From Olsenella uli (GTDB lineage: Bacteria > Actinomycetota > Coriobacteriia > Coriobacteriales > Atopobiaceae): a stretch of 64,000 bases of DNA. Location: positions 1 through 64,000 of the forward strand of contig NZ_JACJKN010000005.1 in NCBI RefSeq assembly GCF_016900775.1. Reading direction: 5' to 3'. Below the pieces are notes generated by a model. It was not told where the DNA came from and did no database searches. It saw only the letters and a list, made by a program, of their open reading frames with translations. The first letter of the stretch is position 1; each line of letters opens with the position of its first letter. Of this stretch, positions 36,890 through 40,497 are shown one piece after another. Made by a program: the position numbers and the translations under genes.

Positions 36890-37561
36890 TTAAACGAAGT
36901 CATGTGTCCTCACGAAGGAATAACCGACCGCCTTCTTCGCGGTACCTGTGCTCAAATAATACTGAGACATATAAACGTCGTAGGAGTAATTGTCGTAGAG
37001 GGGGTAAGCGATAAGGTGGCCCTGGCGGACTGTCCTCCCGTTTACAGTGGATGGAATCGCATAGGAACCCGAAATGCTAATAGATTCCGATCCTGTAACA
37101 TTAAACCCGACACATGCATTAATTGTACCGGTATCGACTCCTGAAGCACAGGAATAGCTATTTGAGACACCCACGGTCTTCTGTATTGTCACTGTTACGC
37201 CAGGCTGACCGGTAGCCTCAGCAAGCTTGTTTGCCCCTCTAGTCTGACCTGTTTTGCGAAGATTCTTGAGAGTATAGGGAGAGCGTGGAGAAATGATAGG
37301 TTCGGCTTCAGTCCCTGTCTGGTTCGCAGAATCAATCAGCCACTGATTAATGACCGATACTTCGGTGACAGACGGATCGGAAAAGGCTTCGAGAACGTCG
37401 TTTGTCATATCGTCGTTTTTGTCAGTCCTATACAGCGTCACGGTCCTCCCCGGCATTCCGAGTTCCTCGGCAAGAATGCGCGAGGGAGAGATAACTAAAA
37501 TCGCTACGACAAGCAAGGCGAGGACAGCAAAAAGGGAGCGCAGGCTCTTTTTCATCTTCAT
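36890..37561 (-). CDS. Secreted protein of unknown function (AT-rich island)
   Basis: A 223-residue exported protein. MKMKKSLRSLFAVLALLVVA begins a clear signal peptide, with a probable cleavage after SRILA. The mature part has a helical, charged first half and a second half with alternating small and beta-prone residues (VGFNVTGSESISISGSYAIP) and two cysteines about 12 residues apart (YSCAS and INACV) that may form a disulfide, then a Tyr-rich strand region. GGAG lies 6 nt before the ATG. Function unknown; composition differs from neighbouring genes. Confidence 0.7.
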   Translation of the reverse strand: MKMKKSLRSLFAVLALLVVAILVISPSRILAEELGMPGRTVTLYRTDKNDDMTNDVLEAFSDPSVTEVSVINQWLIDSANQTGTEAEPIISPRSPYTLKNLRKTGQTRGANKLAEATGQPGVTVTIQKTVGVSNSYSCASGVDTGTINACVGFNVTGSESISISGSYAIPSTVNGRTVRQGHLIAYPLYDNYSYDVYMSQYYLSTGTAKKAVGYSFVRTHDFV

Positions 37562-37691: not shown

Positions 37692-38144
37692 TCACCAGCT
37701 GTACATTGCAATATCCGAGCTAGTTACTCTGACGCCATCAAGTGGTTTTGACATGACAAAGTAGTAGACGCCAGATCCAACACCCTCCCAAGTTGCCTTG
37801 GTGAAGCCATTGCGCATAAAAGTTGCTGTGCCAAGAGAAGCGCTGGAGGACCCCTCAACCCGCATCAAAGTAACACCGAACGTGCCGGAGCTGCTCGAGA
37901 CGCAAGTCATCTCTATACCTACGCTGCTTCCGTCATAATGATGTGATGCGGTTTCAAATGTTGTGTATAGAACCATGGTAGATCCGTACCATGATCTTGG
38001 CATAGCATGAGCTGTTTGCTCGTAGGAAAGGATGATGTTCACATCATCACTTATTCCCTCAGCTTGAGCGGGCAACGCCCATACGGTCTCCAAGCCAACC
38101 GCCAAGGCTAACGCAAGCAGGGAATTAATCCTCGGTCTTGTCAT
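37692..38144 (-). CDS. Small secreted protein of unknown function (AT-rich island)
   Basis: A 150-residue protein with a signal peptide (INSLLALALAVGLETVWALPAQA) and a predicted cut after AQA. The mature chain is Ser/Gly/Thr-rich and looks like a beta-sandwich (GVTLMRVEGSSSASLGTATF, then GSGVYYFVMSKPLDG), with a single cysteine. AAGGAGG is 7 nt upstream of the ATG at 38144. It lies 89 bp after the LuxR-type gene. Not recognised; size and composition would fit a secreted binding or bacteriocin-associated protein, which is only a guess. Confidence 0.7.
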   Translation of the reverse strand: MTRPRINSLLALALAVGLETVWALPAQAEGISDDVNIILSYEQTAHAMPRSWYGSTMVLYTTFETASHHYDGSSVGIEMTCVSSSSGTFGVTLMRVEGSSSASLGTATFMRNGFTKATWEGVGSGVYYFVMSKPLDGVRVTSSDIAMYSW

Positions 38145-38233
38145 TGCCACCCTCCTTACCCGACGTGCAACAGCGTAGTCAGAGAGACGGCAATCGTCGT
38201 GTCAGCAGCCTATATGAGAAATGTCTGACCCCT

Positions 38234-40192
38234 TCAACCTGCATGTTTTTCCAAAAGAGCCTTAAGCTCGCTTGCGCTATGTATATTGAGCTTGCGATAG
38301 GCGGTTGCTTTTGCGCCATTAACGGTACCCGGCGCAATATAGAGTTGGTTTGCTATCTGACTCCTGCTCATGCCCAGAGACGCGAGGGTCAAAACGCGCG
38401 CCTCCGTCTCGGTTAGACCAAGATCACTAAGAACCTCAACGGTCTTTCTATTCCTTTCAACTGGAGTCTCTCTAGCATCAAGCTGTCTCTCGCGACTTAT
38501 TCGGACGGCATCAACAATAGAAAGACCTATCGTGAGCACAATCCCAATAAAGAAAACCTCTTGAAGACTTGTGTTAAGCAGGGCAGCTCGACGAAACGAG
38601 AGACCAGATCCGACCAGCAGCAGAAACGCATGACGATGAGAGCATATCGTACGCATTCCTTGACTCAAACTAGCTACCAGCCGAGACCAATACGCCTTCA
38701 AAACGAAGGAGAACTTGGGCTCCAGAACAAGACCCTCACGCAAGGCGGAAACACCTAAGCCAAGCTCGGAGAGTGCAACATTGATGATTCCCAAAGGAAA
38801 ACCGCCGTAGTTCACGGATGTGTAGCATCCAAGAAGCTGAGCGCATATACAGGTCAACGCGCAACCTCTGTCACCTGTCCGTACGGCCACGGATCCCCAC
38901 AAACCAGTACCTACCATTGTCATCTGTGTCAGTGCGACAACGATGAGGAGGGCACCCGCAACGAGCAAGGCGCTCTCTTGGTACGGCGTTGGAACTCCCA
39001 CGGTAAGCGGAAGCAAAATCAACAACCCAGAAAAAATCTTCTCCAGCAACGAATTAAGTCTCATCCTCCCACGAGATGGCCGACCAGAAGAGTCGTTCAC
39101 TTCACGCGCCGCCTCCAGCCGGGAGGACAGTTGATCGAGGCTCTCAAAGCCCAGGGCATCTAATGCGCGCCTCTGAAACGTACTTACCGTTCCCCTTGCA
39201 ATGCCAAGCCTATCGGCAATCTCAGCACCCTTCATGCCCTTGAGTCGCAAAGCAATCACATCACGCTGACGCGCACTCAGCGAGTCAGCGCCAGGAAGAT
39301 GGCTCAAAAAAACCGAGGGACGATCATCGCGCGGAACAGCATCGGAAGTAAACGACTCCATACCGTCTTGCGCAACCCAATACGCATAGGCGGCAATGAG
39401 GGCAAGCACTAAGGCTACAAACACCAGAAAGACGGCAACAATAAGGACAGAGGTTTGAGTATTCACGTCTGAAAAATTGGCCGGATGAAACGTCAATATC
39501 TCAGAGAAGACTCTTCCGGATGCGGAGGAGGCAAACAGACCACCAATTATAACGAGCTCGCAAGTTACGAGCTCGGTTGATGTAAACCTCCCGTCAGTGA
39601 TACGTCGCAGAACGCACCATGACATCACTCCTGACATCACGCAAAGCAGAGGACCAGACCATGCTGGGAGGAGTAAAGAAACGACGCCGATTACTAGGGG
39701 GAAACACACACTCAAAATGAGCAGCGTCAACATGAGCCCCCTCTTGCCCGAGGCGTCAGGCAACTCCCCTCCTGTTCGCAAAAGAGAACCGTTTAATGCC
39801 CAGAAGACCAAAGACAGCACAAGAGCCACGCCGCCAAGAGCCTCGAAAAGAGGCTGGCGTTCAAGAAGGGAGTAGTCCCCTAGCCGCATGGGCAGCCACC
39901 CAGCCTCGCATAATGCAATAACCGGAATGCACGTAAACGCAATTACAGGTGATGCCATGCGAACAATTAGAACAAACCGGTCGAGACGACGACTGCCAAG
40001 GATCGTCCAAACCAAGACGAGAAGCGACAGGGCAATCGCGAGGAATTCTACTTGGTATTGAAGGGGGGCCACCAATGACGCAGCATTGAAGAGAAAGGTG
40101 GCCGATGATCTTAACGTGCAGGGCATGGCACACATGAGCGTGCCCCAGAGACACCATAGGTTCCTGGCCCTCTGCTCACGCTCCTCGGTCAC
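38234..40192 (-). CDS. Membrane protein with two LuxR-type HTH domains in tandem membrane-HTH modules
   Basis: A 652-residue predicted membrane-bound regulator. Residues about 15-275 hold seven to nine hydrophobic helices; residues 304-360 form a LuxR-type HTH (LSARQRDVIALRLKGMKGAE, then GTVSTFQRRALDAL). Residues about 383-561 are a second membrane module and 591-648 a second HTH (LTETEARVLTLASLGMSRSQ, then GTVNGAKATAYRKLNIHS). The usual Coriobacteriia form has one module. The GTG at 40192 overlaps the upstream stop (GTGA) with GGAGG 10 nt before. The gene is AT-richer than its neighbours. Confidence 0.82.
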   Translation of the reverse strand: MTEEREQRARNLWCLWGTLMCAMPCTLRSSATFLFNAASLVAPLQYQVEFLAIALSLLVLVWTILGSRRLDRFVLIVRMASPVIAFTCIPVIALCEAGWLPMRLGDYSLLERQPLFEALGGVALVLSLVFWALNGSLLRTGGELPDASGKRGLMLTLLILSVCFPLVIGVVSLLLPAWSGPLLCVMSGVMSWCVLRRITDGRFTSTELVTCELVIIGGLFASSASGRVFSEILTFHPANFSDVNTQTSVLIVAVFLVFVALVLALIAAYAYWVAQDGMESFTSDAVPRDDRPSVFLSHLPGADSLSARQRDVIALRLKGMKGAEIADRLGIARGTVSTFQRRALDALGFESLDQLSSRLEAAREVNDSSGRPSRGRMRLNSLLEKIFSGLLILLPLTVGVPTPYQESALLVAGALLIVVALTQMTMVGTGLWGSVAVRTGDRGCALTCICAQLLGCYTSVNYGGFPLGIINVALSELGLGVSALREGLVLEPKFSFVLKAYWSRLVASLSQGMRTICSHRHAFLLLVGSGLSFRRAALLNTSLQEVFFIGIVLTIGLSIVDAVRISRERQLDARETPVERNRKTVEVLSDLGLTETEARVLTLASLGMSRSQIANQLYIAPGTVNGAKATAYRKLNIHSASELKALLEKHAG

Positions 40193-40497
40193 GAGAGCAG
40201 CACCTCCAGCTCCATCACCTGGTCGCGGGCGTCGCGATCGTCGGCCTCCCAGAGGCGCCACTCCCCCGCCGCGCGGTACGCCACGCGCGGCCCGAAGCCG
40301 CCCACGAGCGTGTTCGCGGCGCGGCCGAAGTCCGGGTCGGACTTGAGCCCGGGGTAGCGCACGGCCTCCACGCGCGGGTGGCAGACAAGGTAGTTGGCCA
40401 CCACCTGGGCCGCGTCCGAAAGCGCCCTCCAGCGCTCCCGCCCCATCTGGGACGAGAGCTCCTGGAGGGCCGCAAGATCGAGGTTCTTCTCGCCCAC
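40189..40497 (-). CDS. Orphan C-terminal domain of Cys/Met-metabolism PLP enzymes
   Basis: A 102-residue protein. Its core, VVANYLVCHPRVEAVRYPGL followed by KSDPDFGRAANTLVGGFGP, matches the start of the C-terminal domain of cystathionine gamma-synthase/MetB-like enzymes, but the PLP-binding lysine domain is absent and no other part of such an enzyme is nearby. The start is GTG; codons 3-5 (Glu-Lys-Asn) are a GAGAAGAAC copy. It lies 17 bp after thrS and its stop overlaps the LuxR-type gene start. It could be a relic or a small protein with a new role. Confidence 0.6.
   Translation of the reverse strand: MGEKNLDLAALQELSSQMGRERWRALSDAAQVVANYLVCHPRVEAVRYPGLKSDPDFGRAANTLVGGFGPRVAYRAAGEWRLWEADDRDARDQVMELEVLLS

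Follow-up and report, generated by a model that had tools for sequence, protein, structure and literature searches.

A membrane protein with two unlike LuxR-type HTHs in Olsenella uli and a promoter-like element associated with its gene family

The locus carries a two-HTH membrane LuxR-type regulator

The window, a stretch of 64,000 nucleotides from Olsenella uli (source genome G000, 2.48 Mb in 66 contigs), contains a gene for a membrane LuxR-type regulator with two HTHs, here called dLuxR. The gene and its neighbouring features are listed in Table 1. The frame starts with GTG at 40192 and contains no internal stops. In agreement with the preliminary description, the intact frame, two separate GerE matches and the topology prediction support one chain with two units, each made of a membrane module followed by an HTH. 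The gene resembling the C-terminal part of PLP enzymes sits between thrS and dLuxR, and both thrS and a similar short PLP-fold-like frame are found upstream of dLuxR in G002 and G007. These two are the genomes with full-length orthologues of the target (52-53% identity in G002, 50-51% in G007) among the 31 genus genomes searched, at least 27 of which gave a match to the target.

Table 1. Features of the dLuxR locus and other two-HTH proteins of the same genome
Feature	Position	Strand	Basis or remark
Short protein like C-terminal part of Cys/Met-metabolism PLP enzymes	40189..40497	minus	overlaps dLuxR start
Two-HTH membrane LuxR-type regulator (dLuxR), 652 aa	38234..40192	minus	GTG start overlaps upstream gene's end
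Membrane module 1, 8 predicted TM helices, residues 26-267	39392..40117	minus	hydropathy, positive-inside pattern, AlphaFold2 helices
HTH1, LuxR/NarL type, about residues 304-360	39113..39283	minus	GerE 39.9 bits; fold match residues 294-363
Membrane module 2, 6 predicted TM helices, residues 382-566	38495..39049	minus	hydropathy, AlphaFold2
HTH2, distinct conserved LuxR-type, about residues 591-648	38249..38422	minus	GerE 42.5 bits; NarL/RcsB/StyR fold, Z about 10
Asymmetric promoter-like element	38172..38216	minus	CAT 38214-38216; core ACACGAC 38196-38202; -10-like TACGCT 38172-38177
Small exported protein, AM(Y/F)SW family, ATG 38144, presumed controlled partner	37692..38150	minus	family alignment; other genomes
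Second small exported-looking protein, 223 aa, possible further operon member	36890..37561	minus	no Pfam or NCBIfam match
TM-HTH-TM-HTH protein	G000 C24:14250-15110
HTH-HTH-TM-PASTA protein (L048)	G000 C10:35559-35987		PASTA E 7.6e-15
Short HTH-HTH protein (L049)	G000 C24:136187-136600

Two-HTH proteins form a family

The first set comprised 51 intact two-HTH frames in 25 of the 31 genus genomes. They fall into classes T (tandem, 12 proteins), S (22), M590 (6), M650 (3, the group of the target), M690 (4) and X (4). Sixty further regions from family and class searches, picked by HTH2 score, yielded 56 more two-HTH proteins, some of them from two other families of the order. The search for homologues with the double layout thus returned, besides the full-length orthologues in two species, 107 two-HTH proteins overall from the genus, its family and two sister families; since regions were picked by HTH score, this number describes a catalogue and not prevalence. 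Seven and eleven one-HTH frames were left out, including true singles, split genes (e.g., L078) and contig-edge copies (e.g., L094). In L078 (G016:C18), a two-HTH gene is apparently split across two reading frames. Counts from genome searches, in which a capped set of candidates was scored per genome (10 to 44 in the wide searches), are lower bounds. Among the matches listed for 396 genomes sampled across the phylum, the top HTH2 scores and complete tandem units occurred only inside the order. The S-class genes (e.g., L047) commonly follow rplT, and ilvC often flanks them on the opposite side.

HTH1 and HTH2 are LuxR-type domains of different kinds

Each HTH was run singly against Pfam GerE (PF00196), and both exceeded the curated cut-off of 23.5 bits, HTH1 over 39128-39286 (residues 303-355) and HTH2 over 38264-38416 (residues 593-643). 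In structure comparison with the PDB, HTH2 matched over 61-66 residues and HTH1 over 68 residues (Z 9.0-9.1), in both cases with the NarL-like tetrahelical fold. Foldseek alone gave no match with E below 0.001; its probability was 1.00, yet E exceeded 0.3. With the curated cut-off passed and a NarL-like fold, both HTHs belong to the LuxR/NarL (GerE) superfamily, as had been read from the letters alone. The autoinducer-binding domain of quorum-sensing LuxR proteins had no Pfam match in the target up to E 1.

The pair of unlike HTHs is fixed across the family. When models were built with the tested class held out, the first HTHs were closer to the HTH1 model in 51 of 51 proteins and the second HTHs to the HTH2 model in 51 of 51. 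Among the 56 new proteins, the HTH1 model was correct for 56 and the HTH2 model for 55. Judged by these models, the two HTHs represent separate conserved types, and their order is fixed.

The membrane modules are predicted to leave both HTHs inside

Hydropathy averaged over three orthologues at a lenient threshold gave 8 TM helices, HTH1, 6 TM helices and HTH2. A stricter single-sequence threshold put the target at 6 and 3 TM helices and its orthologues at 8 and 3-4. The exact number is provisional, because the stricter threshold gives fewer helices. The number of K+R per loop alternates (3, 0, 3, 2, 3, 0, 3, 1, 17, 0, 2, 0, 6, 0, and 13 in the tail), a pattern that puts both HTHs inside; the cytoplasmic location raised as a question in the preliminary description is thereby predicted for both. 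An AlphaFold2 model of the target, based on 49 sequences, reached a pLDDT of 84.3 and a pTM of 0.82. Its first helix (residues 2-22) disagrees with the first hydropathy segment (residues 26-44), and the model is no proof of HTH-HTH packing or of a DNA-facing pose of the HTHs.

Profile comparison by hhalign related module 1 of class M to those of M3 (90-92% probability), X (69-83%) and S (39-67%). Between classes, no other pair of module 1 and no pair of module 2 exceeded 2.3% probability. Module 1 (residues 1-282 of the frame at 38237-40192) shows a weak likeness to MFS proteins, with Z about 9; against MFS chains, Z was 8.7-9.5 over 200-220 residues with an rmsd of 4.6-4.9, under the level advised for helical proteins. 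We considered and rejected a whole chain formed by one MFS-like domain split by HTH1: the whole-chain MFS TM-score is at most 0.25, module 1 alone aligns, and module 2 is unalignable across classes.

A promoter-like element is associated with dLuxR genes

An open k-mer count past the stop codons found TGACAGAC in 12 of 58 non-redundant polytopic loci, compared with a shuffled maximum of 5. ACAGAC lies within 110 bp after the stop of 23 of 58 non-redundant polytopic dLuxRs versus 9 of 334 other genes of the same loci (Fisher p 1.2e-14). It follows one of 6 S genes and was found in 0 of 57 mid-gene positions, after 0 of 19 single-HTH LuxRs and after 0 of 11 T genes. Alignment of 22 ACAGAC sites revealed CAT 11 bases ahead of the core (C in 16, A in 17 and T in 15 of the 22) and, 18 bases past the core, a -10-like box with A in 20, the final T in 19 and T at the first base in 10. 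The general layout is CAT-N11-ACAGAC-N18 followed by the -10-like box.

A matrix was built from 20 of the 22 sites, with L175 and L179 left out as ill-fitting. At 12 bits, with leave-one-out for training loci, it matched 29 of 57 loci, compared with 0 of 171 shuffles, 2 of 57 reverse strands and 6 of 254 other genes; these six include two sites of paired dLuxRs in L145, which were kept in the count. Single LuxRs scored at most 8.8 bits, and 28 of the 57 loci scored below 12 bits.

Just past the target gene, the element reads CAT-N11-ACACGAC-N18-TACGCT, in the layout learned from other loci. It scored 20.3, and the sites of the two orthologues 13.4 and 18.9, all three outside the training set; the target does not carry ACAGAC itself, its core needing a one-base insertion that the matrix permits, and both this insertion and the widened pattern were permitted only after the target's site had been seen. 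Within the window, the target's site is the single match to the widened pattern, and the exact target-type pattern has one match in the whole genome. In G007 the element is kept and the next gene is different.

Across the family, 17 of 26 S genes carry the widened pattern on their upstream side, with 14 different site sequences, and 4 of 13 T genes do so, each with a different one. A single genus and a single chromosomal place account for most of the S sites, and three of the T sites are orthologous. Downstream of polytopic genes it was found in 10 of 68 cases (9 distinct), three of which are the target and its orthologues. The reverse strand gave 0 on either side, as did the upstream regions of the 68 polytopic dLuxRs, and the pattern was absent from the stretches fetched around 22 single-HTH membrane LuxRs. 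Away from masked dLuxR genes there were 25 matches. On inspection, 22 were unmasked copies or fragments of dLuxR loci, which leaves L090, L175 and L197 unexplained in this way. With the widened pattern behind 10 of 68 polytopic genes and scores below 12 bits at 28 of 57 loci, the element is, by these counts, not universal in the family.

The first core pattern, TGWYTACAGAC, gave 19 matches in 14 genomes versus 5 for the reversed control. Among the sites whose surroundings were fetched, four lack a dLuxR in the neighbouring 4 kb or so, and for a fifth the distance to one is 5 kb. One cluster (L277, G219:C14:17000-36900) contains two dLuxR genes; TGWYTACAGAC sites precede several of its genes in matching orientation, one of them near the start of the second dLuxR.

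Small exported proteins follow two-HTH genes

The gene next to the element at the target encodes a small exported-looking protein of a family whose members, in alignment, end with AM(Y/F)SW or close variants. In 296 class genomes, the family was found at no fewer than 15 places in at least 13 genomes. At thirteen of the 15 listed places, the family member comes immediately behind a two-HTH gene and shares its strand. One of the other two is divergent beside a two-HTH gene (G219:C9), and the last, in G159, has no HTH match in its 2.4-kb locus. Like the element, the exported partner is thus associated with the dLuxR gene family. More small exported-looking proteins and permease-like genes occur at other dLuxR loci. 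Pfam searches of the exported partners and the permease-like neighbour gave nothing over the cut-off except one C92 peptidase.

Proposed mechanism and alternatives

Together, these observations make it rather probable, in our judgement, that dLuxR works as a one-component regulator in the membrane, its differing HTHs reading the dissimilar halves of a single promoter to control an operon of exported proteins. The membrane modules would sense a signal, and the relative placement of the two cytoplasmic HTHs would change as a result. The chain would then act at the asymmetric element that lies a short way past the dLuxR gene, with the core of the element taking the -35 position, and the operon that starts with the small exported AMYSW protein would be switched on. 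We infer that dLuxR binds the element with one half for each HTH, and that the outcome is activation rather than repression. The suggestion in the preliminary description that a single polypeptide could bind two half-sites is indirectly favoured by the asymmetric promoter-like element found near many genes of the family. As a class, dLuxRs could tentatively be pictured as single-chain, membrane-anchored mimics of heterodimers, in which unlike HTHs read CAT and ACAGAC of a polar promoter as a monomer and a ligand, perhaps the AM(Y/F)SW protein, moves the modules, sets the spacing of the HTHs and so controls transcription. If true, this possible arrangement would make dLuxRs a signalling class that spans the order and has a promoter type to itself.

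The usual view of LuxR-type regulators is that chains with one HTH each pair into dimers, and many LuxR/NarL proteins dimerise via the C-terminal helix of the HTH. It is conceivable, if somewhat unlikely, that one HTH of dLuxR alone reads DNA and the other serves as a dimerisation or regulatory domain, so that the protein binds as an ordinary dimer of chains. In addition to this common mode of dimerisation, the residues of the two HTHs lend the idea some weight. A near-invariant R-E pair is present in HTH1 (96% and 95%) and in 22 single LuxRs (100% and 95%) and is missing from HTH2, where the same stretch is mostly E, L/T and Q, so HTH1 and HTH2 are under different constraints. Against it stand a basic residue in the recognition-helix region that is conserved in both (R in 93% of HTH1 and 89% of HTH2) and the make-up of the element, in which CAT and ACAGAC form two conserved blocks that differ from each other.

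With its resemblance to a promoter, the element might instead serve another regulator or an alternative sigma factor, its closeness to dLuxR then reflecting co-regulation within a cassette. We regard this as unlikely. Its spacing is indeed -35/-10-like, the S and T classes carry it upstream of the dLuxR gene itself, and one cluster has several copies ahead of several genes. However, such an explanation fits poorly with the absence of ACAGAC after T genes and single membrane LuxRs and its low count after other genes. It also has to account for the distribution in 140 family genomes, where 20 of the 76 places with the ACAGAC pattern lie within 400 bp of HTH2 matches among the 95 listed, against 0.02 expected. 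Another 10 places are within 6 kb of a listed HTH2 and 46 are elsewhere; the reversed control gave 38, so many of the far places are chance matches.

A recent origin by in-frame fusion of two ordinary membrane LuxRs with one HTH each, or by duplication, close to the duplicated architecture of the preliminary description, would explain why a membrane module precedes each HTH, but it is very improbable. The HTH types are constant across classes, and orthologues exist in other species. Homology between modules 1 and 2 was not detected by profile comparison (at most 2.8% probability within a class, 11.4% for the best pair across classes), and the term "duplicated" is not supported for either the HTHs or the modules. 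An artefact of assembly or a frameshift, the other concern raised at the outset, is practically negligible, as the frame is intact and the same two-HTH layout recurs in the assemblies of other species (G002 and G007).

With two unlike HTHs in one membrane chain and a candidate polar promoter element, the family makes it possible to test how DNA might be located and read by a membrane protein that does not dimerise. It also offers a route to predicting the targets of many uncharacterised Coriobacteriia regulators, and it points to an unstudied family of exported proteins that may be under dLuxR control.

Comparison with known regulators

AraC/MarA-type regulators have two HTHs in one chain and act at an asymmetric site near -35; they are soluble, with adjacent HTHs. 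dLuxR shares the number of HTHs per chain, but its HTHs are of the GerE family, and no AraC match to the target was found in Pfam. NarL/FixJ and LuxR proteins carry one HTH per chain and form dimers of chains. Their DNA-binding domains (1yio, 1je8 and 4wul) have the same fold as the dLuxR HTHs, whereas these proteins have no membrane modules.

The closest relatives in design are DadR, HcdR and CadR of Eggerthella lenta, described in PMC9734109 (Nat Commun 2022) as 10-12-TM LuxR regulators with a single C-terminal HTH. They resemble dLuxR in being membrane-embedded, one-component LuxR-type regulators of the same bacterial class. Their genes lie near those they control, and neighbouring genes are activated in response to a substrate; for dLuxR the controlled neighbour is a presumed one. 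In contrast to their one HTH after one N-terminal 10-12-TM domain, dLuxR has two unlike HTHs, each after a membrane module, with 6-8 TM helices before HTH1 and 3-6 between the HTHs, depending on the threshold. The dLuxR modules compared with the membrane domains of 22 single-HTH LuxRs by hhalign gave at most 1.5% probability, with unrelated controls up to 0.9%; within the 10-12-TM family itself, membrane domains are generally less than 20% identical, as reported in PMC9734109. The promoter-like element is present at many dLuxR genes and was not found at the 22 single-HTH LuxRs. A "double luxR" is mentioned in PMC4288048, where it means two neighbouring genes. No description of two LuxR HTHs in one chain was found in open-access full text. 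The preliminary view that no protein with this layout had been described stands to that extent, but the layout is not unique to the target, as the family catalogue demonstrates. dLuxRs appear to form a class of membrane gene switches with no earlier description.

Other two-HTH proteins of the same genome

Besides the target, G000 encodes three more two-HTH proteins (Table 1). The C-terminal part of L049 is unlike that of its close relatives in G008 and G015, whose TM segment it does not have, and a transposase-like frame lies beside it on the opposite strand. In L048, a tandem HTH1-HTH2 unit is followed by one TM helix and PASTA domains, making it a possible cell-wall-sensing one-component regulator.
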